DNA of 64,000 nt from Peredibacter starrii (GTDB lineage: Bacteria; Bdellovibrionota; Bacteriovoracia; Bacteriovoracales; Bacteriovoracaceae). Below are positions 6,543-29,745 of the stretch, piece after piece. The first letter of the stretch is position 1. Each line of letters opens with the position of its first letter. Where the stretch lies: the NCBI RefSeq assembly GCF_034259205.1, contig NZ_CP139487.1, forward strand, positions 930,001-994,000. The letters are read 5' to 3'. Made by a program: the position numbers and the translations under genes. The notes beneath the pieces were generated by a model that did no database searches, had not been told where the DNA came from, and saw only the letters and a list, made by a program, of their open reading frames with translations.

Positions 6543-6570
6543 TAAATTATCTTCCTTAATAATCCGATAA
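6543..6570 (+). promoter_or_regulatory. Sigma-28 (FliA)-type promoter of the linker protein gene
   Basis: TAAA at 6543-6546, 16 bases, then TCCGATAA at 6563-6570. The E. coli FliA consensus is TAAA-N15-GCCGATAA. The same arrangement occurs before other genes of this island (8827, 15434, 19161 and, weaker, 12088). The predicted transcript would have a leader of about 125 bases. Confidence 0.6.
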
Positions 6571-6587
6571 GTCCTTCAGGAATTCAG

Positions 6588-6710
6588 ATGGATAACGAGC
6601 TTATCATTATGAAGATAATGAAGATTATTTTAAAAACTCTCTCCAGTCATCGCATGGAACAGCGATCTGCTGACTCGTTCTTTTTTTATAAAGGAATGAA
6701 CCATGCTTAA
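6588..6710 (+). CDS. Possible 40-codon leader ORF overlapping the next start
   Basis: An ATG at 6588, six bases after AGGA, opens a 40-codon frame ending at TAA 6708-6710, eight bases into the following gene in another frame. The predicted peptide is Ile/Lys-rich at first and has no recognisable motif. The leader is AT-rich, so an ORF this long could arise by chance. If the sigma-28-like promoter is the only one, the AGGA sits at the very 5' end of the message, which weakens the case. Confidence 0.25.
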   Translation: MDNELIIMKIMKIILKTLSSHRMEQRSADSFFFYKGMNHA

Positions 6711-8775
6711 GAATTCACTCTACGTTGGTGTAGCACTTATGGCGGCCTTTCTCATTCGAGTGGCCTCGGTTCAATTGTCAGCAGACAAGCCAGCAGTAGA
6801 AGAAGATGAAGTAGAAGTTCAAATCACTCCAAGAAAAATCAAAAAACGTAGGCCTGCTTCAGTTGATGTGCCAAAACCAAGAATGCAACCTCAACGTGAA
6901 AGAGCAGATCGCGCTCCTCGTATGATGCAAACTTTCGAACCCCGTGCGGAAGAGCCAGTAGATGAAGAGAGAATGGCAGTCGGTGGAGGACAAGAAGAAG
7001 CTCCAATGCCGATGTCCGTTGGATCATACAGTGCTGATGCGACTTATGTACCTAGTAGTAATAGTGGTGGAGGAAGCCGAAGTGTTGCTTCTGGTTCAAG
7101 AGTAGGAAGTGTTTCGAATGCACCTACGACTTCGACATCAGGATCTAAAACAACTGGTTCATCTCAATTTGGTGGTATCACTGGTAGCTTAGGTGGTGGC
7201 GGTGGTCTTGCATTTGGTAACGTAGGATTTACGACTGGATCGTCGTCTTCAACAACCGGATCATCAAGTTCAGGTAGCAGTTCTACAACAGGATCGACGA
7301 CATCAGGAACAACTGGTTCAACAACTTCTGGTACTACAGGGTCTACAACGAGTTCAACTTCGAGTGGTTCGTCGTCATCTGGATCTTCGTCTGGAACTTC
7401 GTCGTCTGGTACGACAACTTCAGGGACATCTACCGGTAGTACGACTTCGGGTACAACAACTTCCGGTACAACAACTTCCGGTACAACAACTTCTGGAACT
7501 ACTACTTCCGGTACAACAACTTCTGGAACTACTACTTCGGGCACAACTACATCAGGTACGACAAGTGGTACTGGTGGTACAACGACATCAGGAACTACAA
7601 CTTCCGGTGGAGGTTGGGTGACTGTGGCCGGGGCTTCTTCAGGATCTACTTCAGGTTCAACTTCCGGAACGACTACATCAACTACTACTAGTGGTGCAGG
7701 TGGATCTACTACATCTACAACAACAAGCGGAACAGGTGGAACAACTACCTCGGGAACTACAACAAGTGGTACTGGTGGAACAACTACTTCTGGTACAACA
7801 ACAAGCGGAACTGGCGGAACAACAACCTCTGGTACAACCACCAGTGGTACGGGTGGTACAACATCTGGTACACCAGCTACACCTCCAACTTGTTCGGCAA
7901 CGCCTTCAACAGGTGCCTACAGTAGTTCAGTGTCAGTAACCATTACTTGTGATGCTCCATCTAATATCTTCTATTGTGTTAGCAATGCCGCTTGTTCTTC
8001 AGGAACAGCGTGTGACCCTGAAGCCTCAGGAATTGCATATTCTTCACCAGTAACAATTGGTGCAGTTGATGGTGCATACTGCTTGAGCTTTTACGGTACA
8101 GCAACATCATCAGGACTTGATTCAACAATTACTGATTTAAGTTATGACATCAATAGTGCACTTCCTCACTTAGAAGTGACGAACACAAAAACATATTTCC
8201 AAACGACAGAACTTTACGGAAGAGATGACAATATTCCATCGAACATCTGGACATCAATAGTGAGTGACGACTTCGCTCCAACTGGAATCTCTGTAGGTAT
8301 GGTGAACCTAAAAACTCACGATCCTGCGGCCACTACTTGTGAAGATGTCGTGACAAACTATGTGAGCTACCCAGCTCCGACTCCAGATCCTTTCTTTGAA
8401 TGGATCACAGGAGTTGATCCCGAAACTGGATCTTTAAGTCCATCATCACAAATTGATTTACCATTGGTTCTCGCGAAACTTGAATACGGCGATAACTTCA
8501 TCGTAACGTGGATTAGAAACTCATCTTACTCACCGGCAACCTATTCTTGTTCAACTACGAAAGTGCACTTGGAAGATTTTGATTACTTCCAGGCCGATAG
8601 CTCTCACGGTGAAACGGGAACTCAGTATGTAAGAGAGTTTTCAGGTGGATTTACTGCTTACGGTTTCTTTGAACCTACAATCGATAATCCTCCATCAAGA
8701 GGTCCAGCAGGGGAGAGTGCTGAAGACAAATCAGGTGAAAGATTAGAAAGTGGTCTGTTCAGTATCTTCTACTAA
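6703..8775 (+). CDS. Surface protein with long Gly/Thr/Ser linker and chitobiase C-like domain
   Basis: A 690-residue exported protein. Residues 1-25 are hydrophobic (signal or anchor), 30-110 are charged and Pro/Arg-rich, and about 175-395 are a low-complexity Gly/Thr/Ser linker containing pentapeptide GTTTS repeats and a 13-residue [13 protein letters not shown] unit. Residues about 398-485 ('[20 protein letters not shown]') resemble the CHB_HEX_C/FN3-like domain often attached to extracellular proteins and carry cysteines that may form disulfides. The final 200 residues match nothing I recognise. ATG 6703 has AAGGA seven bases upstream. It shares a sigma-28-type promoter with the fibre genes that follow, suggesting co-expression. 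A display stalk or adhesin role is inferred from architecture only. Confidence 0.75.
7231..7877 (+). repeat. Intragenic tandem repeats encoding the Gly/Thr/Ser linker
   Basis: Coding minisatellite. A 15-base unit encoding GTTTS is repeated about eight times around 7438-7566, with near-identical copies at 7450-7493. A 39-base unit encoding [13 protein letters not shown] occurs about three and a half times around 7732-7870. Units are multiples of three, so copy-number change would alter linker length without breaking the frame. Confidence 0.85.
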
Positions 8776-8826
8776 TTTTTTGATGGCCCAAGACATTCTA
8801 AATCTTATTCAATTGCGGATTAAAAT

Positions 8827-8854
8827 TAAAAAGATTTTTTTAATATCCCGATAA
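8827..8854 (+). promoter_or_regulatory. Sigma-28 (FliA)-type promoter of fibre gene A
   Basis: TAAA at 8827-8830, a 16-base spacer, and CCCGATAA at 8847-8854. The transcript would begin near 8861, leaving a very short leader. Spacing is the same as at 6543 and 19161. Confidence 0.65.
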
Positions 8855-8870
8855 GTCTTAAAGAATATCA

Positions 8871-11800
8871 ATGGGATATAAATTGAAATTACGGAACTCT
8901 CACTCCAAATTTCTTAAGACTCTTTGTGCTGCATTCGCAGTCATCAATATTTTTTCTTATGCATATGCAGAATCGTTAAGCTATTCCGGAAGACTTGTTA
9001 ACACAAACGGCTCACCAGTTGTGGGTCCGGTAAATTTAAAATTTGATCTCGCTAGCACGGCCGATACATCAACCATTCTTTGTACTCAGCAAATTTCTAA
9101 CGTTGCTCTGACAAATGGCGTGTTCCATGTGAAGCTTGATTTAAATTGTGGAGCACAAACTTTATCTCAAGTACTCGCTACTATACCATCTCCAGATACG
9201 GCCGCTATTCGAGTAACCAATGAAAGTGCAAGTAAAGCATATTCATTTCAATCTCTTCATGCAGTTCCATCAGCACAAATTGCTCATGGACTCGCAAAGC
9301 TAAATGCTAATAACAATGAAGTTCTAACTTGGACAGGTTCTCAATGGGAACCAAAAGCAATTGTGGGCGCGACAGGTGGAACTGTTACATCAATTGTTGC
9401 TGGATCCGGTTTATCAGGTGGAACAATTACAAACTCGGGAACGATTGCCATTTCAAATAGTGGAGTAACTGATTCTCATCTCGCTGGTGGAATCACACGA
9501 AGTAAAATGGCCAATGGTACTGCCAATTATGTTCTGGTGAATGATGCTTCAGGAGTAATGGGTGAAGTTGCACAGCTTCCTCTGACTAGTGGTGGTACCG
9601 GATCAAATACGGCCGCTGGAGCTCGAACTAATCTTGGTCTTGGTACAGCGGCCGTGGCCAATATTGGTGATGGACCAGGAAATGTAATGTCTGCCTCAGC
9701 AGTTCCTAATTGCTTGGCGAGTGAAAAACTTCAAATGAGTGTTGGTCCGGTTTATTCTTGGACCTGTGTTCAGGATAATGATTCACTCGATGGAACTAAA
9801 CTTCCTCTCGGTGGCGGTACGATGAGTGGTGCCATTGCCATGGGGAACAATCAAATTACAGGTCTTGCGGCTCCTGCACTCGGAACAGATGCTGCTACCA
9901 AAGATTATGTAGATACTAAAGTTGGTGCGGCCCCTGGAGATAATCTTGGTAACCACACCGCCACGACAAACTTGTCACTGGGAACTAATAGAATTTTTGT
10001 AGGTGATGGTGCTTGGAATACTCCATCAATTTCTTTCACGAGTAGTACTAATACTGGTATTGCTCAGAATGGTGGTAATATGACATTCACTTCTAGTGGC
10101 AGTCTTGCAATGACTCTTTCTGGAAGTTCACTTAATCTCAATGGTTCTTTTTCTCCATACATGAGGTTGGGAGGGGGAGTTTTTGATTCTTCAAATCCTG
10201 CCTATTCTTTCGGCGGCGATCCAGACACAGGGATGTTTAACTTATCTACGAACATTCTTGGTTTCACCACTGGTGGTGTGGAGAAAATGAGAATTCTCTC
10301 CACCGGTGAAGTGGCCATCGGTAAATCAACAGCAGCTGGCAAAGTTGATGTCGCTGGTGATATTGCCCTCGACGGAAAATTGAGAGTTAAATCGGACTCT
10401 GCAAATTATGTTGAATTCAGAGCTCCGGCGAGCCTTGGGGCAACTACAACCTATACGTTTCCTGCTACTGCAGGGACTTCAGGTTATGCTCTCACCACAA
10501 ATGGTTCAGGTATATTGTCGTGGTCACCAGTTGCAACAACCGCTTCAACGATTGGTGGAGATCTTTCAGGAACAATTGCCAACGCTCAGTTAGTTGCTAA
10601 TTCAGTTGGTACTTCTGAGATCGCAGATGCTTCGGTCACATATTCTAAACTTAGTTTAACTGATGGAGATATTCCTCAAGCGAAAGTCGCCAATCTTGTA
10701 AATGATTTGGCCGGGAAGCAACCGCTTATTGCTGCTGGAACAATGGCACAATATTGGAGAGGAGACAAAACCTGGCAGACGCTAAACACATCAGTTGTGC
10801 CTGAAGGAACAAATCTCTATTTCTTGGATTCAAGAGTTCGCACGGCCCTCATGAGTGGTTATGCAGTTGGATCTGCAGTACCACTTGATGCTACAGATAC
10901 TTTAATTGAAGCACTTGGAAAGCTTGAGGCGCAAATCATCGCCAATGATGCTGCCTTTGATAGTTCTGGAATCTGGAGTAAAAACTCATCAAATGTTTAC
11001 TATACTAGTGGATATGTCGGAGTAGGAACGAGTACTCCCATCTCTCCTTTGAATGTCGAAAAAACCTACACTGTGAATTCGACCGATGAAGAGTATGGAA
11101 TGTATGTTAAGACAGCATTTCAAGAGAACAGCACGAATTGGAAGGCCGGAATACGTGCCAATACATATCCAGCTCATGCAAGTGGCTCACTTACAAAAAT
11201 CATTGGTATGCAGTCTTTAATCCAAGGTGGAGTAAGCGGAGGAACGACGACAGATGCTAGTGCAGTTTGGAGTCGAGTTGATACAGTGACAGGACAAACC
11301 ATCACAAATGCATATGGTTTTTATGTGGAAAACGGAGCGGGAACAGGTTCGCCAATCAACCAGTTCGGTCTATATGTTCAGGCCCTAACAAAAGGCTCTG
11401 CGGATAATTTTGCGATTTATACCAGTGGTGGCACTAAAAGTTATTTTGGAGGTAATGTTGGTATTGGAACAACTGCTCCTCAAGCTGCCTTGGATGTAAA
11501 TGGTGGTATCAAACTCGGATCGATGACAACTTGCGGGGCCGCTCAAGAAGGTTCTCAGCGTTATAATTCTACTCTTAAAATCATGGAGTTTTGTAATGGC
11601 ACTGTTTGGGGAGCCATTGGAGCTCCGGCCATTCCAACCGGTGCAATCATGGCCTTTGATTTAACTTCTTGTCCATCAGGTTGGAGTGAATACACAGTTG
11701 CTCGCGGACGCTTCCTTCGCGGTATCGACAATGGTGCTGGACAAGATCCAAGTGGTACACGAGCTCCTGGTAGCTATCAAGCTGATGCTGTTCAAGATCA

Positions 11801-12005
11801 CACTCACCATGTAACTGGTGAAGGTGGGGGTTATAACAACGTGGTTGCTTTCCAAGATACCAACCCTGATTCAACCTACGGCTCAGGTGGAAACCCTGGA
11901 AGCCGTGGTGATGTTTATATTGGTGTTGGTCCAATGAGAACAGGTAACACCGCCGTTGAGACTCGTCCTCGAAACGTGGCCGTTCTCTATTGTCGAAAGA
12001 ATTAA
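8871..12005 (+). CDS. MAT-like fibre/adhesin protein A with tail-collar-like C terminus
   Basis: A 1044-residue secreted protein. The signal peptide ends near 'AYAYA' style residues 28-33; then comes the island's shared N-terminal module (34 to about 260: '[19 protein letters not shown]', 'LTNGVFHVKLDLNCG', 'LTWTG.QWEPK', '[18 protein letters not shown]'). Central modules resemble phage tail fibres ('GGTMSGAIAMGNNQITGL', 'QYWRGDKTW', 'VGIGTTAP'). Residues about 922-1044 resemble a phage tail-collar/fibre tip ('PSGWSEY', 'RGRFLRGID', 'HTHHVTG', 'ETRPRNVAVLYC'). There is no S74 domain. Start is uncertain: ATG 8871 has a weak site, while TTG 8883 is six bases after GGGA in a leader shared with the gene at 19219. 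Trimerisation and prey or surface binding are inferred from MAT and phage fibre relatives. Confidence 0.85.
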   Translation: MGYKLKLRNSHSKFLKTLCAAFAVINIFSYAYAESLSYSGRLVNTNGSPVVGPVNLKFDLASTADTSTILCTQQISNVALTNGVFHVKLDLNCGAQTLSQVLATIPSPDTAAIRVTNESASKAYSFQSLHAVPSAQIAHGLAKLNANNNEVLTWTGSQWEPKAIVGATGGTVTSIVAGSGLSGGTITNSGTIAISNSGVTDSHLAGGITRSKMANGTANYVLVNDASGVMGEVAQLPLTSGGTGSNTAAGARTNLGLGTAAVANIGDGPGNVMSASAVPNCLASEKLQMSVGPVYSWTCVQDNDSLDGTKLPLGGGTMSGAIAMGNNQITGLAAPALGTDAATKDYVDTKVGAAPGDNLGNHTATTNLSLGTNRIFVGDGAWNTPSISFTSSTNTGIAQNGGNMTFTSSGSLAMTLSGSSLNLNGSFSPYMRLGGGVFDSSNPAYSFGGDPDTGMFNLSTNILGFTTGGVEKMRILSTGEVAIGKSTAAGKVDVAGDIALDGKLRVKSDSANYVEFRAPASLGATTTYTFPATAGTSGYALTTNGSGILSWSPVATTASTIGGDLSGTIANAQLVANSVGTSEIADASVTYSKLSLTDGDIPQAKVANLVNDLAGKQPLIAAGTMAQYWRGDKTWQTLNTSVVPEGTNLYFLDSRVRTALMSGYAVGSAVPLDATDTLIEALGKLEAQIIANDAAFDSSGIWSKNSSNVYYTSGYVGVGTSTPISPLNVEKTYTVNSTDEEYGMYVKTAFQENSTNWKAGIRANTYPAHASGSLTKIIGMQSLIQGGVSGGTTTDASAVWSRVDTVTGQTITNAYGFYVENGAGTGSPINQFGLYVQALTKGSADNFAIYTSGGTKSYFGGNVGIGTTAPQAALDVNGGIKLGSMTTCGAAQEGSQRYNSTLKIMEFCNGTVWGAIGAPAIPTGAIMAFDLTSCPSGWSEYTVARGRFLRGIDNGAGQDPSGTRAPGSYQADAVQDHTHHVTGEGGGYNNVVAFQDTNPDSTYGSGGNPGSRGDVYIGVGPMRTGNTAVETRPRNVAVLYCRKN

Positions 12006-12087
12006 TTTGTTAAGTGTGATGACATTGCACTCATCCTCAATTTTAAAATTCCGCTTGTCATAATATGCTAATTTGTAAAATTTTCTT

Positions 12088-12115
12088 TAAAAAATTCCAA
12101 ACTTTCAGTCGATAT
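12088..12115 (+). promoter_or_regulatory. Weak sigma-28-like promoter of fibre gene B
   Basis: TAAA at 12088-12091, 16 bases, then GTCGATAT at 12108-12115. It has the island's spacing but two mismatches in the -10 element. The predicted leader is about 32 bases. Confidence 0.4.
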
Positions 12116-12153
12116 ATCTTCTGAATTTTAAACCGTCTCAAGGAATGCCTGAA

Positions 12154-15100
12154 ATGGGCGCTAGATATCAACTGGGAATTTTCTTTTTTCTCATTTCAAC
12201 TGCGCAGGCAGGAGATTCTCTTAGCTACTCTGGCCGAATTGTGAATACAAATGGTTCTCCTGTTGTCGGTCCGGTAAATTTAAAATTTGAACTCGCCAAC
12301 TCTGTTGATTCAACTAATATTCTCTGCTCTCAGCAAATCACTAACGTTTCCCTAACAAACGGTGTGTTTCACGTAAAGTTAGATTTAAATTGTGGGGCCT
12401 CCACTCTGAATCAAGTGCTGAGCGCCATTCCTTCGACTGAAACTCCGATCATTCGTGTAACAAATGAAACTGCAGGGAAAACATATTCCTTTCAGGCGCT
12501 GCACTCAGTTCCTTCTGCTCAAATTGCTCATGGACTTGCAAAATTAAATGCAAACAATAATGAAGTTCTTACCTGGACAGGTGCGAAGTGGGAACCTAAA
12601 CCAGTTAGTGGTGCCGCTGGCGGAACAGTCACAGAAATCATTGCCGGCTCCGGTCTCTCAGGTGGGACAATCACAAACTCTGGAACTATCTCAATTGCAT
12701 CTGGTGGGGTAGCGAATTCTCATCTTGCTGGGGGAATTGTTCGTTCCAAACTTGTAAGTGGAACCGCTAATTATGTGTTAATCAATGACGGGTCTGGGAA
12801 CATAAGTGAAGTGGCACAACTTCCTCTCTCACAAGGTGGTACAGGTGCTAATACCGCCGCGAATGCTCGAACAAATTTAGGATTAGGTTCTGCTGCAACG
12901 GCAACTATTGGCTATGCGGCCGGAAATGTTTTGCCTTCGGATAATATTCCGGTTTGTCTCCCAACTCAGAAACTACAGTTTACAGGATTAGGTCCAACTT
13001 ATTGGGGATGTGCCGCCGATGTAGATACGACATCTGATCCAACTAAGTTACCACTCGCAGGTGGTGTAATGACCGGTGAAATTAATATGGGAGTGAATAA
13101 GATTATTAATCTTGGAGCACCGATTAATCTTACTGATGCCGCCACAAAGGCCTATGTCGATAACCAAGTTGGAAGTGTTAGCAGTGGAGTGACTGGAGCA
13201 TGGGTGAGCGTGCCTCTTTCTGATACTGATGAATATGACCTTAATTGCCGTTATCAGTTTACTATCTCAGGTAGTGTTATCGTGGCAAACGTGGTGCGAA
13301 CCAATGCGATTCAACATATCTTCAATACGATGAATAGTAATACTACAATGACGTATTATTCTGTGCCTAACACTAACAAAGCGACTGCTCAATATCATCA
13401 GGACAACTGGTCGAACAATCAAATCTCCGCAAACATGACTGTAACTAGTGTGATGAAAAACTGCGGACCTACCACTCCGGTTCCGAACTCGATTGTTGAT
13501 GCTGATACCGGCACTCGAATCCAGGTAGAAGCCTCATCGAATGAAAACAGTATCCGTTTTGATACGGACGGAACGCAGAAGATGATCATCAACGCTACCG
13601 GAGAAGTGGGGATTGGAACTACGACTCCTGTCGATAAATTAGATGTGGTAGGAAACGTTGCTCTTACAGGTAAACTAAGACTAAAATCAACTACCGCCAA
13701 CTTTGTAGAACTTAAAGCTCCAAACGCGTTGGCCGCGACTTTGATTTTTAATCTACCTGGAGTGGCCGGAACTTCAGGGCAGGCCCTCGTTACTGATGGC
13801 GCAGGAAATTTATCATGGGCGACAGTTGCAACCAGTGCCACTGCCGTGGGTGGCGATCTCTCTGGAACAGTATCAAATGCGCAGATTCTTGCTGGCTCAA
13901 TAGTGGATGCGGACATTTCTGCCAGCGCCGCCATTGCTCAGTCTAAAATCAGTGGTCTTGCCTCCTCTCTTTCAGGAAAAGAGCCAACCATTACTGCTGG
14001 TACAGCGGCCCAGTATTGGAGAGGAGATAAGTCCTGGCAGACACTAAATGGTGTTGCTGTTGGAAATACGGCGGTCGGAAATATTGCGGCCACAAATGTG
14101 CAGGCGGCAATCAACGAATTAGATTCTGAAAAGCAACCTCTCATTATTGCAGGAACCACTGCTCAGTACTATCGCGGTGACAAAACCTGGAGTTCATTAC
14201 AAAGTGATGTCCAAGCTTTAGTCATGAATGGATTTGCAGTAGGAACGAATACTGCGCTTTCGAGTAGTGATACTCTTTCTGGGGCCCTCGGAAAACTTCA
14301 AGCTCAGATCAGTGCAAACCTCACAGCTTTTAATAATACCGCACAATGGAGTGAAAACGGAACCAGCGCTTATTACAATACTGGGAACGTAGGGATAGGA
14401 ACATCGGCTCCCGCTCAAAAGCTTCACATTAATAGTGGTAACATTCGAGTTGATAATGGCTCAAATGCGACTATCTTCAACAGCGGTGGTATGTACTTTA
14501 GTGGGGTGCCTGGAGCAGGAACTCATACTAATTATGTATTTCGTCCAGGTTGGGGAAGTGGTGCCAATACTCTTGCAACAATAACAGTTCAGAATGCAAA
14601 TACATCAGGTGGATATAACAACTGTGTTCATTTATCGAGTTATGGACCTTCATACTTCAGTTGTGGCGCCGTAGGTATAGGAACTGCCAGTCCTCAATCT
14701 GACTTAGATGTGAATGGAAGAATTCGAGTATCAGGCTCATCGCAACCAACTATGGAAATATATAATTCTGGAGCACCTGCAAACCAACGCTGGACTGAAT
14801 TGTTTAGTGGTACTGACGGAGTCGTTGTTTTAAGGACAATGAATGATGCATACACGTCCGGTGCTACGATTTTTCATTCACACAGAAATGCCGGAACACA
14901 TACCATTGATTATACTGTATTGGATGGAGATGTCGGAATTGGTTTTCGGCCTAGTTACAAATTTCACGCAAACGGTGTCGTCGCCGGAGTAGGTGCTTAC
15001 GTTAATGCTTCAGACAGAAGATTAAAGAAAAATATCAAACCGATTTCTGATGCAGAAAAATTACTAACTTTGCAAGGTGTATACTTTGATTGGCGACAGG

Positions 15101-15396
15101 ACGAATTCCCAAAAATGAATTTTGAGCAGGCCAATGATATGGGAGTAATCGCTCAAGAAGTGGAAAAAGTTTTTCCTGAAGCAGTAAAGACAGATAAGCA
15201 GGGTTACAAATCGGTAGCGTATTCCAAGCTCATTGCTCCTCTGATTGAAGTCACGAAAAATGAGCATCAAAAGATCAAGTCCCTTGAGCAAAAAGTTAGC
15301 TCTCTCTCAACTGCTAACGAACAACTTAGAAAAGAAAATGCCCTCATCAAAGGATATATTTGCTCTAAAGATCCTAAAGCGCTTTTGTGTAAATGA
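12154..15396 (+). CDS. MAT-like fibre/adhesin protein B with Peptidase_S74 chaperone domain
   Basis: A 1080-residue secreted fibre protein. The signal peptide (about 1-20, ending 'STAQA') is followed by the shared N-terminal module ('SLSYSGRIVNTNGSPVVGP') to about residue 250. A segment around 350-450 is unique to this copy ('TDEYDLNCRYQFTISGS') and resembles a small beta domain. Further on are modules shared with protein D ('LRLKSTTAN.VELKAP', 'SIVDADISASAAIAQ', 'QYWRGDKSWQTLN') and phage-like 'VGIGT.AP' repeats. A C-terminal Peptidase_S74 intramolecular chaperone domain starts near 951 ('SDRRLKKNIKPI', 'MGVIAQEVEKVFPEAV') and ends in a coiled coil and a two-Cys tail. ATG 12154 was preferred because AAGGA lies nine bases upstream; ATG 12145 abuts it. 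S74 domains fold fibres as trimers and may be cleaved off at the conserved Ser. Confidence 0.87.
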   Translation: MGARYQLGIFFFLISTAQAGDSLSYSGRIVNTNGSPVVGPVNLKFELANSVDSTNILCSQQITNVSLTNGVFHVKLDLNCGASTLNQVLSAIPSTETPIIRVTNETAGKTYSFQALHSVPSAQIAHGLAKLNANNNEVLTWTGAKWEPKPVSGAAGGTVTEIIAGSGLSGGTITNSGTISIASGGVANSHLAGGIVRSKLVSGTANYVLINDGSGNISEVAQLPLSQGGTGANTAANARTNLGLGSAATATIGYAAGNVLPSDNIPVCLPTQKLQFTGLGPTYWGCAADVDTTSDPTKLPLAGGVMTGEINMGVNKIINLGAPINLTDAATKAYVDNQVGSVSSGVTGAWVSVPLSDTDEYDLNCRYQFTISGSVIVANVVRTNAIQHIFNTMNSNTTMTYYSVPNTNKATAQYHQDNWSNNQISANMTVTSVMKNCGPTTPVPNSIVDADTGTRIQVEASSNENSIRFDTDGTQKMIINATGEVGIGTTTPVDKLDVVGNVALTGKLRLKSTTANFVELKAPNALAATLIFNLPGVAGTSGQALVTDGAGNLSWATVATSATAVGGDLSGTVSNAQILAGSIVDADISASAAIAQSKISGLASSLSGKEPTITAGTAAQYWRGDKSWQTLNGVAVGNTAVGNIAATNVQAAINELDSEKQPLIIAGTTAQYYRGDKTWSSLQSDVQALVMNGFAVGTNTALSSSDTLSGALGKLQAQISANLTAFNNTAQWSENGTSAYYNTGNVGIGTSAPAQKLHINSGNIRVDNGSNATIFNSGGMYFSGVPGAGTHTNYVFRPGWGSGANTLATITVQNANTSGGYNNCVHLSSYGPSYFSCGAVGIGTASPQSDLDVNGRIRVSGSSQPTMEIYNSGAPANQRWTELFSGTDGVVVLRTMNDAYTSGATIFHSHRNAGTHTIDYTVLDGDVGIGFRPSYKFHANGVVAGVGAYVNASDRRLKKNIKPISDAEKLLTLQGVYFDWRQDEFPKMNFEQANDMGVIAQEVEKVFPEAVKTDKQGYKSVAYSKLIAPLIEVTKNEHQKIKSLEQKVSSLSTANEQLRKENALIKGYICSKDPKALLCK

Positions 15397-15433
15397 TTGA
15401 TTTTACAAAGAGTGAACACTGTTAAACACTTCT

Positions 15434-15460
15434 TAATTTATTCCTTGGAAATCCCGATAA
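15434..15460 (+). promoter_or_regulatory. Sigma-28 (FliA)-type promoter of fibre gene C
   Basis: TAAT at 15434-15437, 15 bases, then CCCGATAA at 15453-15460. The transcript would start near 15467, after the TTG at 15465, which argues for the downstream ATG at 15495. Confidence 0.6.
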
Positions 15461-15494
15461 GACTTTGAGAAATCAAAGGATTAGACCCAAAAAA

Positions 15495-18400
15495 ATGGGA
15501 AAACTCTCACGCGTCTTTTATCATTTCTTATGTGGCTCTCTCATCGCCATCATCTCCGCTGCCTATGCGGAGTCGTTAAGTTATTCCGGCCGTCTGGTTA
15601 ACACAAATGGTTCACCAGTTATGGGCCCTGTAGATTTGAAATTTGATCTCGCAAGCACGGCAAATACATCGACTATTCTTTGTACTCAACAAATCACAAA
15701 CGTTTCACTTACTAATGGTGTCTTCCATGTGAAATTAGATTTGAATTGTGGTGCTCAAACTCTTTCTCAAGTGTTGGGTTCAATTATTTCACCGGATGCT
15801 GCCGCCATTAGAGTGACGAATGAAACTGCAAGTAAATCATATTCATTTCAGTCGCTACATTCAGTTCCATCGGCGGAAATCGCTCATGGTCTTTCAAAGT
15901 TAAATGCGAATAACAATGAAGTACTCACTTGGACTGGTTCTAAATGGGAACCAAAACCTATCGTTGGCGCGACTGGTGGTACGGTTACTGACATTACTGC
16001 AGGAACAGGATTATCAGGTGGAACGATTACGAACTCAGGTACTATAGCCATTGCAAATGGCGGAGTAACTGATACACATCTTGCCGGAAATATTTCTCGC
16101 TCTAAACTCGCTGCCGGGACCGCCAACTCAGTAGTTGTAACGAATGGTTCAGGAGTGATGACTGAAGTTTCACAACTTCCAGTTTCAAATGGTGGTACGG
16201 GCTCTTCAACTGCGGCCGGTGCGCGTACGAATTTAGGATTGGGTGATGCTGCTGTTGCGACGATTGGTTACGGTGCTGGTCAAGTTATGCCAGGCGAAGT
16301 TCCCATGTGTCTTTCTCATCAAAAACTTCAGATGAATTTAGGGCCAACGTTTTGGTCATGTGTGAATGATAATGATTCTCTGGATGCTACTAAACTTCCT
16401 CTTACTGGTGGAACAATGAGTGGCGCCATTGCGATGGGGAACAATCAAATCACAGGACTTGCGGCCCCGACGCTTGGAACCGATGCTGCGACTAAAGACT
16501 ATGTTGATACGAAAGTCTCTACTGCTCCTGGAGATAATCTCGGTAACCACACAGCAACAACTAATCTCGCTCTTGGATCTAACAACATTACTGGTGTTGG
16601 CACAATTTCTATTGCTAATGGTGCATGGAATTCGCCAAGCATCAACTTTACAAGTTCACCTTCAACAGGTTTCTTCAATAATGGTGGAATCATAGGATTT
16701 TCTGCTAACGGAAGTCTTTCTATGAATCTTTCATCGTCAACCCTGATTATGAATGGTTCATTTGCTCCTTACCTGCGTCTTGGTGGTGGAACTTTTAATG
16801 CTTCAAATCCAACTTATGCATTTAATGGAGATCCCGATACAGGGATATTCAATCTTTCGACTGACATTCTTGGCTTCACAACTGGTGGAGTCGAAAAAAT
16901 GCGTATTCTCGCTACCGGTGAAGTTGCGATTGGTAAATCAACAGCAGCAGGAAAACTTGATGTTGCCGGAGATGTTGCCCTGGAAGGTGCAGTAAGATTT
17001 AAGTCTGATAACGCAAACTATGTAACACTGAAAGCTCCAGCATCTCTGGGTGCTACTTTCAATTATACTCTTCCATTGACGGCTCCAACTGCGGGCCAAG
17101 TTCTTTCATCAAGTGCTGCTGGTGTTATGTCCTGGATCACACCAACTTCTTCTCCGATTACGACTGTCTTCGGAAGGACAGGGGCGGTGACTGCTACGGC
17201 CGGTGATTACTCTGGTGCTCTTATTACAAATACTCCAGCAGGAACAATTGCTGCCTCTACTGTACAAGGTGCAATTGATGAACTGGCGGCCGAAAAGCAA
17301 GCGGCAGATGCCACGCTGACTTCACTCGCTGCCTATAATACGAATGGAATCTTAGTTCAAACTGCAGCTGATACTTTCGCTGGCAGAAGTATTTCTGGTG
17401 TCGCAAATAGAACGTCAGTAACAAATGGTAATGGAGTTTCAGGTAACCCAACAGTAGACATTGATACTAATCTTCTTCCTTCACCTGCTGGTGGAGACGC
17501 TGGAAAATTTTTAAAAGCTTCTGGTGCCAATGCTTCTGCGTGGACCGCTCTGGCGGCCTTAGATATTACAAGTGCTCTGGGATTCACACCTGTTAATAAA
17601 GCAGGGGACACTTTAAGTTCCGGTACTTTCAGTTTTGGTGGGACAAGCCTTCTTCAAGTCACAAATAATCCCGTCAACGCTACTGATGTAACCAACAAAC
17701 AGTATGTGGATGGACAAATTTCAGGAGCAGGAAACCAATGGGGTCTTGCAAGTGGTAATGTTTATCGAAGCACAGGTAACGTAGGGATTGGAACTTCAAC
17801 TCCGGGTGCTCAGATTGAAGTGAGTGCAGTCAATTTGAGTCCTCGAGTAAAAGTCGTAAATACTTCAAGTTCAGGTGTAAGGTATCCAGGTTTTTCTGGA
17901 GTTAACTTCACTGGCGGTACTGCAGGATTTCCTGTTTTGGATTTATTAAACTCTCGCGGTACTGAGGCAGCTCCACTTCCAATCGTATTGGGTGACCCAT
18001 TAGGGGCAGTGACAGCAATGGGAAACCAGAATTCTGGAAGTACGGCCTTCACGAATGCCGCTCAGATTTATTTTTCGGCGGATGGAAACTTTTCCGCAAC
18101 AAGCACACCTGCAAATATCTACTTCCGAACGACTCCGGCCGGAGCAGTCAATAACGTAAACCGAATGACGATTACCTCGGGGGGCCTGGTCGGAATTGGT
18201 AACTCATCTCCAAATGCTTTACTTTCGTTAGGTGATGGCACCAGTGGTGATAAATTACTTAGAATAAATGAAACCTCTGCCACTCACAAACGCGCCTCTA
18301 TGATGCTTGGACAATGGGAGATTGGACAGGATTCTCAACCTAACAATACACGCGATTTTTTTATTTTTGATGGCTTTCAATCTCAGCAACGTCTCGTCAT

Positions 18401-19121
18401 TGGAAGTTCTGGGAATGTCGGTTTAGGCGTTAATAACCCTTCATATAAACTTCATGTCGGTCCAGGTAACTTCTTTCTAGAAAGTGGTCACCTTTTTGTT
18501 CGTCATAACAGTAATGAAGGTGGTGCGGTTCGTATTCAAAACATGCAGAAAACCGGAGCGCTTGTTAATGATTGGGTCATATATAACATGACGGGTGGAT
18601 ATAATAATGGACTTGCATTTTGGAGATACGCGGCCGATGGAACAAATCTAGGTCCTTCGATGAACTTACATGATAATGGAAACGTAGGTATCGGTACCAG
18701 TGCTCCTTCTGAAAGACTTGAAGTCATGGGTAACGTAAAAGGTGTGGCATTTCTCAATACATCAGACCGTCGCTTAAAAAGAGATATCGCGAGCATTCAA
18801 GATCCAATTGAAAAGATCAAACAACTTCATGGTGTAACTTATAAATGGAAGGAGAGTGGTGAGAAGTCAGTGGGCTTCATCGCTCAAGAAGTAGAAAAAG
18901 TATTTCCAGAATTGGTAAGAACAGACAAAGTAACTGGCATGAAATCAGTCCAATACTCAAACCTTGTGGCGGTGTTAGTTGAAGGTTTTAAAAAGCAATA
19001 CGATCAAGGTGAGAAAGAAAAAGCAGAGCTTAAAAAAGAAATCGATCGCCTTAAGGCCGAAAACGAAGAGACCAATCGTAGACTAGATAGAATTGAAAAG
19101 GCCCTCCAGAAACACCCATAA
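15495..19121 (+). CDS. MAT-like fibre/adhesin protein C with Peptidase_S74 chaperone domain
   Basis: A 1208-residue secreted fibre protein: signal peptide (about 1-25, ending 'SAAYA'), shared N-terminal module, then modules shared with A ('MGNNQITGLAAP', 'FTTGGVEKMRIL') and, after about residue 550, a long block shared with E ('VFGRTGAV', '[19 protein letters not shown]', 'ALGFTPVNKAGDT'). Several 'VGIGT' repeats precede a copy-specific tip region (about 775-1080). A Peptidase_S74 domain begins near 1088 ('SDRRLKRDIASI', 'VGFIAQEVEKVFPELV') and ends in a heptad-rich coiled coil ('KKEIDRLKAENEETNRRL'). ATG 15495 was chosen because the sigma-28 start site falls after TTG 15465; AAAGGA is 14 bases away, longer than ideal. 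Function is inferred as for protein A. Confidence 0.86.
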   Translation: MGKLSRVFYHFLCGSLIAIISAAYAESLSYSGRLVNTNGSPVMGPVDLKFDLASTANTSTILCTQQITNVSLTNGVFHVKLDLNCGAQTLSQVLGSIISPDAAAIRVTNETASKSYSFQSLHSVPSAEIAHGLSKLNANNNEVLTWTGSKWEPKPIVGATGGTVTDITAGTGLSGGTITNSGTIAIANGGVTDTHLAGNISRSKLAAGTANSVVVTNGSGVMTEVSQLPVSNGGTGSSTAAGARTNLGLGDAAVATIGYGAGQVMPGEVPMCLSHQKLQMNLGPTFWSCVNDNDSLDATKLPLTGGTMSGAIAMGNNQITGLAAPTLGTDAATKDYVDTKVSTAPGDNLGNHTATTNLALGSNNITGVGTISIANGAWNSPSINFTSSPSTGFFNNGGIIGFSANGSLSMNLSSSTLIMNGSFAPYLRLGGGTFNASNPTYAFNGDPDTGIFNLSTDILGFTTGGVEKMRILATGEVAIGKSTAAGKLDVAGDVALEGAVRFKSDNANYVTLKAPASLGATFNYTLPLTAPTAGQVLSSSAAGVMSWITPTSSPITTVFGRTGAVTATAGDYSGALITNTPAGTIAASTVQGAIDELAAEKQAADATLTSLAAYNTNGILVQTAADTFAGRSISGVANRTSVTNGNGVSGNPTVDIDTNLLPSPAGGDAGKFLKASGANASAWTALAALDITSALGFTPVNKAGDTLSSGTFSFGGTSLLQVTNNPVNATDVTNKQYVDGQISGAGNQWGLASGNVYRSTGNVGIGTSTPGAQIEVSAVNLSPRVKVVNTSSSGVRYPGFSGVNFTGGTAGFPVLDLLNSRGTEAAPLPIVLGDPLGAVTAMGNQNSGSTAFTNAAQIYFSADGNFSATSTPANIYFRTTPAGAVNNVNRMTITSGGLVGIGNSSPNALLSLGDGTSGDKLLRINETSATHKRASMMLGQWEIGQDSQPNNTRDFFIFDGFQSQQRLVIGSSGNVGLGVNNPSYKLHVGPGNFFLESGHLFVRHNSNEGGAVRIQNMQKTGALVNDWVIYNMTGGYNNGLAFWRYAADGTNLGPSMNLHDNGNVGIGTSAPSERLEVMGNVKGVAFLNTSDRRLKRDIASIQDPIEKIKQLHGVTYKWKESGEKSVGFIAQEVEKVFPELVRTDKVTGMKSVQYSNLVAVLVEGFKKQYDQGEKEKAELKKEIDRLKAENEETNRRLDRIEKALQKHP

Positions 19122-19160
19122 ATCCAATAACTTACAATGGTTATTAAGCCGTTCTTTAAT

Positions 19161-19188
19161 TAAATAACTTTCTTTAAAATGCCGATAA
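19161..19188 (+). promoter_or_regulatory. Sigma-28 (FliA)-type promoter of fibre gene D, perfect -10
   Basis: TAAA at 19161-19164, 16 bases, then GCCGATAA at 19181-19188, identical to the E. coli FliA -10 consensus. This is the best example in the island. Confidence 0.72.
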
Positions 19189-19218
19189 GACTTCTGAAAT
19201 ATCAATGGGATATAACCG

Positions 19219-22200
19219 ATGTCTGTGCGGTCTAAATTAACCTCAAAATTCTTAGTGATCACCGCCATCACATTCATTTCTTATGCATATGCTGATTCAT
19301 TAAGTTACTCAGGTCGATTGGTGAATGCTAACGGCTCGCCGGTTGTGGGTCCTGTGAATTTGAAGTTCGATCTTTCGAGTACTGCCGATACTTCAACTGT
19401 TCTTTGCTCTCAGCAAATTTCAAGTGTAGCACTCACGAATGGTGTGTTCCATGTGAAATTAGATTTAAATTGTGGAGCTTCAACACTCTCACAAGTATTG
19501 GGCTCGATTGTTTCACCTGACTCGGCCGCCATTCGTGTAACGAATGAAACGGCCAGTAAGACATATTCATTTCAATCTCTGCACTCAGTTCCTTCAGCAC
19601 AGATTGCTCATGGTCTTTCAAAATTAAATGCGAACAACAATGAAGTTCTGACTTGGACGGGTTCGAAGTGGGAACCAAAACCTGTTACGGGTGCAACTGG
19701 TGGAACCGTCACTGATATCACTGCTGGTACAGGTTTATCAGGTGGAACAATCACTAACTCTGGAACAATTGCCATCGCAAATGGTGGAGTTACCGATACA
19801 CATCTTGCCGGAAATATTTCTCGCTCAAAGTTAGCAGCGGGAACTGCTAACTCAGTGGTCATCACCAACGGGGCAGGAGTAATGACGGAAGTCGGACAAC
19901 TTCCAGTTTCAAATGGTGGTACAGGTTCTTCAACTGCGGCAGGTGCTCGCACGAATTTAGGACTAGGTTCAGCTTCCGTGGCCAACCTTGGCTATGCCTC
20001 TGGGAACGCTCTTCCTGCGGATAATATTCCTGTTTGTCTTCCGGCCTTCAAACTTCATTTCACCGGTGTGGGACCAACTTATTGGTCATGTGAAGCTGAC
20101 AACGATACAAATTTAGATGCAACTAAATTACCACTTGCTGGTGGAACAATGACCGGCTCAATTGATATGGGTACTAAATCCATTATCAATCTCGCAAATC
20201 CTGTTGATCCTGCTGATGCTGTTAACAAGGCCTATGTTGATGCTCAGGTCGGTGGTTCATCTTCTTGGACTAAAAGTGGATCTGATATTTACAACAACAA
20301 CTCAGGAATGGTGGGAGTTGGGCTTTCTTCTTTTTATCCTGATATGAAATTTCAAATTGAGACTCGCCCAATCAATGCAAACGGAAGAGCAATCAATGCG
20401 GATTTAAGACAGCATACTACGACCAATGGTACCTACGGCCTGCTAGGTGGTGTTTTCAAGGGGCAAACAACGATCGCAAGTGGTGTTACCAATGCCGGAA
20501 ATTTAACTGGTACCTGGTCTGTGGCCTTTAGAAATAATCTTCCCGGAACTTTGGATAATGGAACACTTGCGGGTATCAAAGGCGATTACATTCAGTATGG
20601 ACATTATAATAGCGAAGCCGCTTCAACTCCATTAACGACTGACGTCTATGGATTGTACTTATCTCCACATTATAAAACCGGAACGATCTCTAATCTCTAC
20701 GATATTTATGTTCACTCGGGATCAGGTGGTGGATCGGTCTCTAACTATTATGGCTTGTACCTGCCTGGTTCGGCCAAGAAGAACTACTTTGAAGGTAATT
20801 TGGGTATCAATGTTTCTTCGCCAACAGAAAAGCTTGATGTGGATGGTAATATTGCGGCGACTGGAAAGCTTCGTCTAAAATCAACAACAGCAAACTATGT
20901 CGAGTTAAAAGCTCCTGATGCCCTCGCTTCTACTCTTACATTTAATCTTCCTGGCACAAACGGAACTTCTGGACAGGCCCTCATTACAGACGGTTCTGGA
21001 AATTTATCTTGGTCAACAATTTCAGCTTCTGGAACTTCAGTCGGTGGGGATTTAACCGGAACAGTTTCAAATGCTCAAATTGCGGCAGGAGCGATTGTTG
21101 ATGCTGACATTTCTGCAAGTGCTGCCATTGCTCAAACAAAGATTAGTGGGCTTGCGGCTTCATTCACGGCCAAGCAAGATTTTATCACGGCCGGAACAAC
21201 AGCTCAGTATTGGAGAGGGGACAAGTCTTGGCAGACTCTCAATACAACCGCAGTTGCAGAAGGAACAAACTTATACTTCTTAGATTCACGTGTGCGTGCA
21301 GCGCTTATGGCGACTTATGCAACTGGTTCCGCTCTGCCAGTAAGTACATCGGATACTCTTCTTCAAGCACTTGGAAAATTAGAAGGTCAAATCGTTGCCA
21401 ACAAAGCAGCCTTTGATGGCTCTGGGGTGTGGAGTAAAAACTCTACAAATGTTTATTACAACGGCGGGAATGTTGGGATCGGGACGAATACCCCTGTCCA
21501 GGCACTGGATGTGAGAGGTTCGATCTCTGCCCTAGGACGAATCTATGACGACACAGGGGCCTCTCTAGAATTAGGTATCTCAGGAAAAGCAACTTCTATC
21601 AACGATGGTGAGCTTCAAATTTCTTCTTCAGGATATGTTGGTGTAGGTACTACGAATCCTCAAGCTCGTTTAGATGTGGACGGTTCTCTACAATTAGGCC
21701 GCGCAGTTGATAATAGCACCTCTCGCTATTTAAATATTCAAACCGGTACTGATACCAATAATGCTGGTAATGGATTCGCAAATGGGGATTCTGTTATCAG
21801 GTTAGATGGAGGTGCCAACTCTGGAACGAACACTCTACATCTTTTTGGGAATGGATCTCGAGTTCTTAATCTGGATCTGTTTGATGGTAGCTTGTTTGTT
21901 GCAAATAAATTAGGAATCGGAACAGCGGCCCCATCAGGACGTCTCACTGTCTCGAGCCAAGGTAACACTCTTACAGATTATACGGCCCGTTTTCAGAGTA
22001 GCGGGACAGTAGCTGGAGCTGGTGGTATTTTATTTGATCAAAATTCAGCTTATTCATTCAAGCTTCATACAGAGGGGACTTCTGCCACTTCTGGTCGAAT
22101 GGTTTTCAGTTACATCAATCCAACAGATGGAACTGTTACAAATGACAACATACTGACCTTAGGGCGCGGTTTTGTGGGGATTGGAACAAACGTGCCAGTT

Positions 22201-23082
22201 ACGTTGCTTTCAAATATCCCGAACACCGATTCGTGGAGCAACGTAGGAGATGTGAACGGCACCGGACAAAATACTCAGTCATTCAGCTGGAAAACAAGTG
22301 CTGCAGGCTATTCTGCGGCGATCATCAATACCAATTCTGGCGTCACAGGTAATGGTCTTCAAGTAAGAACGACAGGCACATCTTCCGGTCATAATATTTT
22401 CACTGCGGGTACTGGAGTCGCTTCAGGAGCTAATACGGATATTTTCAGCGTAAGAGGTAATGGTACTGTCGGTATCAATATGATTACTCCACAGGCCGCA
22501 CTCGATGTGAATGGATATTCTGCTTCTCCAGGTGTCGGGACCATGAGAATTAGAAACTCCTATAACTCAGGTGGATCTCGATACTGGCAAATTGGGCCAG
22601 ACGGAAATGGTAGCGGAAACTTTGTGGTTTACACTGATGGTCTTGCTGGCGCCTATATCGTTTATGGTCAGACGGCCTGGAGTTCAAGTTCAGATAGACG
22701 TCTTAAAAAGGAAATCGAGCCAATTGAAGACTCGCTTTCAAAAATCATGCAACTCAATGGTGTGACCTATAAATACAAGAAGGACAAAGAGTCTGATCCA
22801 AGAAAGGCAGGTGTGATTGCCCAGGAATTGAAAAAGGTTCTACCTGAAGCAGTGACGGAGGCCGATGGTTACTTATCAGTTAAATATACCGAGATCATTC
22901 CACTTCTTATCGAAGGTATCAAAGATCTCTTCAAAGAGAATAAGCGTGAGATAGCTTCTGTCAAAGCTGAGACAGATGCACGAATAAAAAAATTAGAAGC
23001 AGAGAACGCCGCTCTCAAAAAACAAAATGCTGAAATGAATGCTCGCCTTGATCGAATCGAAAAGTCCTTAAACCGTCCTTAA
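19219..23082 (+). CDS. MAT-like fibre/adhesin protein D with Peptidase_S74 chaperone domain
   Basis: The largest of the set, 1287 residues. The signal peptide ends near residue 25 ('SYAYA'); the shared N-terminal module follows ('[19 protein letters not shown]'). Residues about 350-530 are a copy-specific region ('MKFQIETRPINANGRAIN', 'YGLYLPGSAKKNYF') of a kind common in bacterial S74 proteins. Next come modules shared with B ('LRLKSTTANYVELKAP') and with A ('EGTNLYFLDSRVRAALM'), several 'VGIGTN.P' repeats, and a Peptidase_S74 domain from about 1154 ('SDRRLKKEIEPI', 'AGVIAQELKKVLPEAV') with a coiled-coil end. ATG 19219 has GGGA eight bases upstream. An ATG at 19204 opens only a short out-of-frame peptide. 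Promoter and leader resemble those of gene A. Confidence 0.87.
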   Translation: MSVRSKLTSKFLVITAITFISYAYADSLSYSGRLVNANGSPVVGPVNLKFDLSSTADTSTVLCSQQISSVALTNGVFHVKLDLNCGASTLSQVLGSIVSPDSAAIRVTNETASKTYSFQSLHSVPSAQIAHGLSKLNANNNEVLTWTGSKWEPKPVTGATGGTVTDITAGTGLSGGTITNSGTIAIANGGVTDTHLAGNISRSKLAAGTANSVVITNGAGVMTEVGQLPVSNGGTGSSTAAGARTNLGLGSASVANLGYASGNALPADNIPVCLPAFKLHFTGVGPTYWSCEADNDTNLDATKLPLAGGTMTGSIDMGTKSIINLANPVDPADAVNKAYVDAQVGGSSSWTKSGSDIYNNNSGMVGVGLSSFYPDMKFQIETRPINANGRAINADLRQHTTTNGTYGLLGGVFKGQTTIASGVTNAGNLTGTWSVAFRNNLPGTLDNGTLAGIKGDYIQYGHYNSEAASTPLTTDVYGLYLSPHYKTGTISNLYDIYVHSGSGGGSVSNYYGLYLPGSAKKNYFEGNLGINVSSPTEKLDVDGNIAATGKLRLKSTTANYVELKAPDALASTLTFNLPGTNGTSGQALITDGSGNLSWSTISASGTSVGGDLTGTVSNAQIAAGAIVDADISASAAIAQTKISGLAASFTAKQDFITAGTTAQYWRGDKSWQTLNTTAVAEGTNLYFLDSRVRAALMATYATGSALPVSTSDTLLQALGKLEGQIVANKAAFDGSGVWSKNSTNVYYNGGNVGIGTNTPVQALDVRGSISALGRIYDDTGASLELGISGKATSINDGELQISSSGYVGVGTTNPQARLDVDGSLQLGRAVDNSTSRYLNIQTGTDTNNAGNGFANGDSVIRLDGGANSGTNTLHLFGNGSRVLNLDLFDGSLFVANKLGIGTAAPSGRLTVSSQGNTLTDYTARFQSSGTVAGAGGILFDQNSAYSFKLHTEGTSATSGRMVFSYINPTDGTVTNDNILTLGRGFVGIGTNVPVTLLSNIPNTDSWSNVGDVNGTGQNTQSFSWKTSAAGYSAAIINTNSGVTGNGLQVRTTGTSSGHNIFTAGTGVASGANTDIFSVRGNGTVGINMITPQAALDVNGYSASPGVGTMRIRNSYNSGGSRYWQIGPDGNGSGNFVVYTDGLAGAYIVYGQTAWSSSSDRRLKKEIEPIEDSLSKIMQLNGVTYKYKKDKESDPRKAGVIAQELKKVLPEAVTEADGYLSVKYTEIIPLLIEGIKDLFKENKREIASVKAETDARIKKLEAENAALKKQNAEMNARLDRIEKSLNRP

Positions 23083-23129
23083 GTTTACCTCCGCTTTGTC
23101 TTCAATAAAGCACAATCTTTAACAACTCG

Positions 23130-23157
23130 TTAATAATTTTCTGTGCTGCCTTATACT
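23130..23157 (+). promoter_or_regulatory. Possible sigma-70 promoter of fibre gene E
   Basis: TTAATA at 23130-23135, 16 bases, then TATACT at 23152-23157. Unlike the other fibre genes, no CCGATAA element is visible here. Weak prediction. Confidence 0.3.
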
Positions 23158-23187
23158 TATTCAGGGACGAATAAGAAGAGGTAGTTC

Positions 23188-26088
23188 TTGAAAAAAACTA
23201 AACGGCTTAATAATGCATTTTTTTGTGTTGTGGCCTTGTTAATTTCCGGTCATGCGAGTGCAGAATCGTTAAGTTACTCAGGACGATTGGTGAACTCTGA
23301 TGGGTCACCAGTGACCGGACCGGTAGATTTAAAATTTGAAGTTGCTTACTCCGGTTCCACCGGTACTATTCGATGTACCTCCGATGTAAATGCTGTCTCA
23401 CTCACGAATGGAGTTTTTCACGCAAAACTCGCATTCATTTGTCCGACCTCTTCCTTATATGAAGTATTAAGTAGCGTTCCTGCAGGAGAGGACGCGGTTA
23501 TGCGTGTGACGAATGAAACGGCCGATCCCGATAGAGTTTATTCTTTTCAGACCATCAACGCTGTTCCTGTCGCTCAAATGGCCCATCAACTTCCTAAAAT
23601 GGATGCAACTAATGATCAGGTTCTTACTTGGACAGGATCCAAGTGGGAACCGAAATCCGTCACAGGTGCTACTGGCGGAACTGTGACTTCTGTCGCAACA
23701 GGTTCCGGATTAACAGGTGGACCATTTACTACGACCGGAACGATTTCAATCGCCACTGCCGGAGTATTGGATTCACATCTGGCTTTCGGAATTGCGAGAG
23801 CAAAACTTGCAGGTGGAACTCCTAATTATGTTTTAGTAAACGATGGAAGTGGTGCTTTAACTGAAGTAGCACAACTTCCTCTCACCCAAGGTGGAACTGG
23901 CGCCAACACTGCTGCACTTGCTCGAACAAACTTAGGACTGGGGAACGCGGCTGAATCCAACATTGGATATTCCTCTGGAAATGTGATGCCAGGTGATGGT
24001 GTGCCTGTCTGTTTGTCCTTTCAGAAATTGCAATTCACCGGAACTGGGCCGACTTATTGGTCATGTGCCGTGGATAATGATTCGGCAGATGCATCGAAAT
24101 TACCATTGGCCGGTGGAACGATGGCCGGTGCCATCAATATGAATAATAATTTTATTACAGGTGTTCGCTCTCCATCTGATCCTGGTGATGCTGTTAATAA
24201 GGCCTACGTAGATGCACAGGTGAGTGGCTCATCATTTTGGACATCGAATGCTTCAAATTTGTCTTACGGATCAGGAAATGTTGGAATCGGAAATTCTTCT
24301 CCCGCCGAAAAACTTGATGTTACCGGGAACATTGCTCTAACGGGTGGATTAAAACTTCAATCGAGCAGTACCAATTATGTCACGTTAGCAGCACCAGCTG
24401 CCTTAAGTGCCAACATTACTTACACTTTACCATTAACGGCCCCGAGCAATGGACAGATTCTTTCTTCGTCAGCTGCTGGAGTCATGAGTTGGATTACTCC
24501 AGCAAGTGCTATCACAAATGTCTTTGGTAGAACAGGTGCTGTGTCTGCGGCATCAGGTGATTACAATGCTTCACTTATCACGAACTCACCATCGGGAACT
24601 ATTTCAGGAACTACAGTTCAAGCGGCGTTAAACGAACTCGATACTGAGAAGCAAGCGGTGGATGCCACACTCACAGCACTCGCGGGCTACAATACAAATG
24701 GAATTCTTGTTCAGACCGCCGCTGATACATTTGCGGGAAGGAGTATTGTAGGGGTCACGAATAGAACGAATATTACCAATGGAAATGGTGTTTCAGGAAA
24801 CCCTACAATAGATATCGACACGACCTTATTACCTTCGCCGAATGCAGGCGATATTGGGCGATTTTTAAAGACCACTGCCGCCAACACTTCGGTATGGAGC
24901 TCACTTGCTTCCGGCGATATCACTACCGCTTTGGGTTTTACTCCAATTAATAAGGCAGGGGACACCATTGCTTCTGGGACTCTGGAATTTAATTCAGCAG
25001 GGATTTTAAAACTTTCGAATCCCCCAGTGAATCTAACAGATGCCGTGAATAAACAATATGTGGACAATCAGATCACTGGTGCAAGCAACCAATGGTCTTC
25101 CTCAAGTGGAAACTTGTATCGTGCTACTGGAAATATAGGTATTGGAACGACCTCGCCAACTGTTCCTCTGGCAATTGGTGGAAGTTTATTTGCAAATACC
25201 TCAAATCAAATTCACATCGTTAATACAGGAACATTTAGTAGAATTGCTTTTGGTGAAGACCTCAATAATTATGGTGAAATGATCTGGAGTGATATCAGTG
25301 ATCACATCTCGTTTAATACCAAAAGGGCAGGTTCAAGTTTTTCGAATGCGTTGGTTGTCAGAGATGACAAGGTCGGTATCGGAACTGCTACACCAGGAAG
25401 TGCTCTGGATATTACCAAAACAGATCCTATTGTTAGAGTTAAAAACATCGGTGGTGATATTGGCGGTATGTTTTTAATGAATTCTGTAAATGCTGGGTGG
25501 CTAGGAATGTTTAACCCTAATTCTTCCACGACTTTTGGAGTCATTCCTACTTTAACATCTAAGACATATCTGGCCTGGGATAATTCGGGAAAAATTGGAT
25601 CGGTCTCGAATACATTCACGACTGGGAATCCAGGATCACCTGTTTATCGAAACTTGCTGGATGACGGTTCTGGAAAAATGGGAATTGGAACCTCTTCTCC
25701 TACCGAAAAACTTGATGTGAGTGGTACTGCCACTATGAACGCTTCCACTGAGGGCATATCAACTTACGCGACCTCAGGAACCACATATACGATTTTGGAT
25801 TCTTCACTAAATATTCGGCGTATTACCTTGAATGCAAATGCGACCATCAATTTACCTGCTTTTGCTTCAATGTGGCCCAAGGTTTACACACTCACCGTTT
25901 TCTTGAAGCAGGATGCAGTTGGATCACGGACCGTTAATTTTAATGGTAATGGTGGGGATACAGTGAAGTGGGATAGTGGGGCCGCCCCTTCAATCTCACT
26001 GACTGCGAATAAGATAACTATCGTACAATTCACAAAACCTTCAGATGAAACTGTATGGTATGGATCTAAGGTATGGCAGGAAGACTAA
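23188..26088 (+). CDS. MAT-like fibre/adhesin protein E with unrecognised C-terminal beta domain
   Basis: A 966-residue secreted fibre protein that starts at TTG 23188, six bases after AAGAGGT. The signal peptide ends near residue 25 ('SGHASA'). The shared N-terminal module is more divergent here ('[20 protein letters not shown]'). The middle carries the long block shared with C ('[10 protein letters not shown]', '[15 protein letters not shown]', '[11 protein letters not shown]', '[11 protein letters not shown]'-like) and 'IGIGT.SP' repeats. There is no S74 domain; residues about 865-966 ('[16 protein letters not shown]', '[15 protein letters not shown]', '[12 protein letters not shown]') look like a small all-beta domain of the type found at phage fibre ends. 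The BspA-like gene starts inside its last 16 bases, so both are probably one transcript. Confidence 0.85.
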
Positions 26089-29717: not shown

Positions 29718-29745
29718 AAAAAAAAAGGCCCCTTATAGGGGCCTT
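29718..29745 (-). terminator. Rho-independent terminator after bfr
   Basis: Read on the minus strand, a 9-bp perfect stem (AAGGCCCCT with AGGGGCCTT, three-base loop) is followed by nine Ts. It lies seven bases after the bacterioferritin stop. The 3' arm contains the AGGGG that serves yjbQ. Confidence 0.85.

Follow-up and report, generated by a model that had tools for sequence, protein, structure and literature searches.

The boxes upstream of a tandem array of surface-fibre genes in a Bacteriovoracaceae-like bacterium are best read as sigma-28 (FliA) promoters of three of five MAT-type genes and of the adjacent gene 6703, with the fibres probably carried on swimming cells; we give this reading a probability of about 0.83. 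The placement of sigma-28 promoters before these four genes is well supported by the motif, its spacing, its enrichment, the fliA operon and the published consensus. The host genome is a single contig of 4,153,408 bases with 42.5% GC, of which the window, the whole 64,000-nucleotide stretch analysed here, covers bases 930001-994000; the rest was covered by pattern searches and sampled sections. Since the closest named relatives of the fibre proteins come from Bacteriovoracaceae metagenome genomes, the host appears to be a Bacteriovoracaceae-like relative of Bdellovibrio, and its lifestyle is, by this placement, presumably predatory.

Fibre genes and predicted sigma-28 sites in the window

The features considered are as follows.

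6543-6571, +, predicted sigma-28 promoter of 6703 (exact TAAA-N17-CCGATAAG, model score 22.4)
6703-8775, +, Ser/Thr/Gly-rich repeat surface protein, 690 aa
8827-8855, +, predicted sigma-28 promoter of 8871 (exact match, model score 20.8)
8871-12005, +, MAT-like fibre protein without S74 (NS74 type)
12090-12118, +, candidate decayed sigma-28 promoter of 12154 (TCGATATA, about 12111; model score 7.9)
12154-15396, +, MAT-like fibre protein with C-terminal S74 chaperone (Peptidase_S74, 2.8e-15)
15433-15461, +, predicted sigma-28 promoter of 15495 (exact match, model score 22.4)
15495-19121, +, MAT-like fibre protein with S74 (Peptidase_S74, 1.1e-18)
19161-19189, +, predicted sigma-28 promoter of 19219 (exact match, model score 22.2)
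19219-23082, +, MAT-like fibre protein with S74 (Peptidase_S74, 2.2e-20)
23130-23157, +, sigma-70-like hexamer pair TTAATA-16-TATACT, upstream of 23188
23188-26088, +, MAT-like fibre protein without S74
29743-29771, -, fifth sigma-28 site (exact match), upstream of a UPF0047 gene (29717-29307)

Genes 8871 to 23188 form five tandem fibre genes related to the mosaic adhesive trimer (MAT) family, whose N-terminal regions are 58-87% identical to that of the first protein. All five proteins matched the NCBIfam model Bdello_MAT_N weakly and at the same place, with E values of 1e-5 to 1e-3 (1.2e-5 for gene 12154) and scores of 18-25 bits, below the cut-off of 60, and three of the five carry Peptidase_S74 at the C-terminus. 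The protein of gene 6703 had no match in Pfam or NCBIfam. Comparison with the leader of 19219 suggests that the true start of 8871 may be TTG 8883, while TTG 15465 lies approximately at the predicted transcription start, so that ATG 15495 is the likely start of its gene. The last MAT gene shares its final 16 nt with the gene for a DUF285/PKD repeat protein (26073-27821), and the two may be translated jointly.

We then examined the boxes. As a result, the pattern TWA-N18-CCGATAAG was found to have five exact matches in the window against 0.06 expected from dinucleotide shuffles, an approximately 80-fold excess that none of 100 shuffles reached, and a sigma-28 signal in at least four of the six upstream regions has P ~1e-14 under a Markov background. 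The five exact sites were also the top five (20.8-22.4; next best, 15.3) of a promoter model of the -35 box and spacing, for which 32 training sites had been taken from outside both the window and the MAT genes; with the -10 kept constant as CCGATAAG, the independent test is confined to the -35 and the spacing. The original prediction had placed TAAA-like boxes before 6703, 8871, 15495 and 19219, and these are real; the fifth exact site had escaped it. Its near-constant spacing also held, and indeed proved stricter, as the -10 always follows TWA by 18 at all four genes; the four plus-strand sites can be read alternatively as TAAA/TTAA-N16-nCCGATAA. The perfect -10 that it had reported is GCCGATAA at 19181-19188, in the promoter of 19219.

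The weaker site proposed before 12154 did not rise above chance, since about 0.3 (0.31) matches of its score would be expected in 350 nt, although TCGATATA occupies the homologous place. Gene 23188, the last of the array, has no sigma-28 site upstream. Control of the island by sigma-28 is therefore upheld for four genes, but not for 12154, where the site is at best decayed, nor for 23188.

The E. coli spacing, TAAA-N15-CCGATAA, gave only two matches, the same as its control, indicating that the spacer is longer in this host. Looser motifs (CCGATAAG with one mismatch, or TWA-N18-CCGATAAG with two) were at chance level in the window. Transcription of 6703 is predicted to start at ~6577, leaving a leader of roughly 125 nt, which holds a possible 33-codon ORF (MKIMKIILKTLSSH...; 6608-6714) overlapping the start of 6703. 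A possible hairpin in the 8871 leader (ATATCCC...GGGATAT) is disrupted in the 19219 leader and was dropped. The fifth site directly follows a ferritin-like gene and overlaps a terminator-like hairpin, GGCCCCTATAAGGGGCC, with a T run (region 29771-29707, minus strand), as though promoter and terminator had merged.

The proposed genome-wide regulon and its candidate sigma factor

The genome-wide scan against a background, which had been proposed as a check, favoured the motif: TWA-N16..18-CCGATAAG gave 57 raw matches, which collapse to 49 distinct sites, whereas the reversed pattern gave 3. At approximately 40 of the 49, a plausible start codon lies no more than ~60 nt away, in many cases that of a gene for a secreted protein. 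Among the genes so preceded are two for CheY-like receivers, two for histidine kinases, one for a sigma-54 activator carrying a GAF domain and one for an FHA-GGDEF cyclase with the domain pair of DgcB. Others encode peptidases (M48 and M35), lipases (patatin and PLD), an amidase-like and an HU-like protein, and numerous secreted proteins without assigned function. Furthermore, the flp pilin gene, named from its sequence, is preceded by TAAAG-N16-TCGATAAG with a score of 18.9; TCGATAAG itself was not clearly enriched genome-wide (29 raw matches versus 16).

The best FliA-family sigma factor, at 3710220, scored 272 bits with TIGR02479, over the cut-off, and adjoins a MinD-like (FlhG-type) protein, FlhF, FlhA, FlhB and FliM. 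The proposed tie of the adhesins to the flagellar regulon is indirect, as the flagellin genes mostly lack the motif: among six stand-alone flagellins, one has a near match, TCGATAAG (14.8), one has CCGAATAG (14.2), and the rest have weak sites or none, and the chemoreceptor genes mostly have none or weak variants. "Attack-phase FliA regulon" is therefore a better description than "flagellar regulon", and the targets, taken together, look closer to the attack-phase programme published for B. bacteriovorus than to a regulon of flagellar genes only. Short hairpins (GAGCATGAAGCTC, TTAAGCACGGAAGCTTA and GAGCATGGTTGCTC) in the leaders of three flagellin genes are a possible element of post-transcriptional control.

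The genome contains 12 MAT genes, of which four have CCGATAAG, three have TCGATAAG with a good -35, one has the decayed site (12154), and three have none; the MAT gene at 3053778 is apparently co-transcribed with its neighbour. Four of the genes preceded by CCGATAAG or TCGATAAG lie outside the island. A second cluster (3049466-3067343, minus strand) holds three MAT genes, and at a gene adjoining it (site 3067343) CCGATAAG is followed by a MAT-like leader. In the MAT genes of relatives, CCGATA-type sites occur in several genomes and are absent in others, and in more distant relatives such sites are missing from many MAT genes.

We thus propose that FliA, encoded in the flagellar export/motor operon, would direct RNA polymerase to TWAA-N17-CCGATAAG and transcribe each of four genes separately, namely three of the five MAT-type genes of the array and the Ser-rich gene beside it, with predicted start sites ~6-7 nt after CCGATAAG. 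As the attack phase of Bdellovibrio is governed by FliA, cells that swim in search of prey would then probably be the ones that display the fibres; this timing is taken by analogy from B. bacteriovorus.

Since the genome encodes two FliA-like sigma factors, the sites might instead be read by the second, at 2021790 (179 bits, below the cut-off), in an adhesin regulon parallel to the flagellar one. The lack of the CCGATAAG form at most flagellin and chemoreceptor genes, a few of which carry CGAAAAG/CGAGAAG-like variants, would suit such a division. However, these variants were not enriched in a 304-kb sample, where CCGAAAAG and CCGAGAAG were considered as a second class and rejected, the flp pilin, a proven FliA target in Bdellovibrio, has the motif too, and the published consensus was assigned to FliA (PMC3627812). 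We therefore regard the use of the second paralogue as unlikely, while still giving it some weight.

The boxes could also be an inherited leader, copied with the duplicated MAT N-terminal module and devoid of promoter function. Indeed, the MAT promoters share CTTnnGAAT after the -10, which most other sites lack, so that duplication probably took in the promoter along with the N-terminal module and the likeness of the MAT promoters partly reflects common descent. Nevertheless, the same boxes and spacing occur at ~40 unrelated genes, the non-MAT gene 6703 has a box as well, and within the MAT leaders conservation is highest at the -10 and -35, which makes a functionless copy very improbable. Least probable of all is transcription of the island from sigma-70 promoters with sigma-28 matches arising by chance: the upstream regions are AT-rich and a sigma-70-like match does precede 23188, but such matches in the region fall below shuffles (23 versus 36), none lies on the plus strand upstream of 6703, 8871, 15495 or 19219, and the sigma-28 excess over chance is hard to reconcile with coincidence.

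Distance from the -10 to the start codon

We also analysed where the start codons lie relative to the motif. Across the 49 sites, an ATG is found most often 6 nt from CCGATAAG, and at 21 of them it lies 4-8 nt after CCGATAAG, against a background of 4.75 per 5-nt bin (P ~1e-9); examples include genome sites 55522, 217275, 649568, 1345935, 2972892 and 3358656. As sigma-28 transcription would start at approximately this position, the spacing implies leaderless mRNAs. In 59 genomes of the phylum, the 4-8 nt spacing had 284 matches against 84 at the control spacing of 10-14 nt, where TTA/TAA matches overlapping at one site were counted twice in both sets alike, and the excess was seen in 41 genomes and the reverse in 8 (P ~2e-6).

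In a 366-kb sample that includes the window, a comparable peak was seen for sigma-70-like -10 hexamers, which lie at -13/-12 relative to the start codon in 20 of 322 genes, versus about one per position, and hence leaderless genes would not be confined to sigma-28. Some of the relatives' MAT genes without a sigma-28 site have TATAAT-like boxes a few bases before the ATG, a position that again suggests leaderless mRNAs. On balance, we favour the view that much of the Bdellovibrionota FliA attack-phase regulon is leaderless, with transcription beginning on the AUG or no more than a few bases from it, and with the MAT genes keeping short leaders. A literature search, with most subscription journals outside its reach, turned up no account of such mRNAs in Bdellovibrio, and the feature is possibly unreported so far. 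If this reading is true, the hunting-stage proteome would lean heavily on leaderless translation, and predatory bacteria would make it possible to test how a single sigma factor is coupled to leaderless translation when the life cycle switches.

Comparison with known FliA regulons and MAT fibres

The circuit is already known from Bdellovibrio, and what is added here is its extension to the host lineage and the leaderless pattern. The results suggest that a Bacteriovoracaceae-like predator shares the FliA attack-phase programme and has its prey-binding fibres under it, in which case a common switch could control motility and the display of fibres. Like the class 3 FliA promoters of E. coli and Salmonella, the host promoters have a CCGATAA -10 and a TAAA-like -35, whereas the host targets are mostly not flagellar. 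The spacer of the E. coli FliA consensus is one base shorter than that of the host.

Closer to the host is B. bacteriovorus, in which TTAAG-N16-CCGATA was found in 92 of 140 attack-phase promoters and read as FliA sites, and mapping identified FliA as the global regulator of this phase, with targets including cell-surface anchors (PMC3627812); MAT proteins were annotated "cell wall anchor". The flp/TAD pilin promoter responds to FliA in both B. bacteriovorus and B. exovorus (PMC5430801), and DgcB, with its FHA and GGDEF domains, governs prey invasion in Bdellovibrio (PMC6733907). The HD100 FliA regulon and that of the host are alike in -35 and -10, in spacing, which equals the published Bdellovibrio spacing, and in surface anchors, proteases, flp pilus and fliA (PMC3627812, PMC5430801). 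They differ in that the host belongs to another family (Bacteriovoracaceae-like) and its regulon is a predicted one, its flagellin genes mostly lack a perfect motif, and many of its sites abut the start codon. As for the fibres, those of B. bacteriovorus likewise have a signal peptide, a conserved N-terminal domain, long repeats and a C-terminal S74 chaperone (present in three of five in the host array) and are encoded by many genes, 21 in HD100 against 12 in the host (PMC10769870), whereas the host proteins match the N-terminal model below its cut-off and five of their genes stand in one tandem array.
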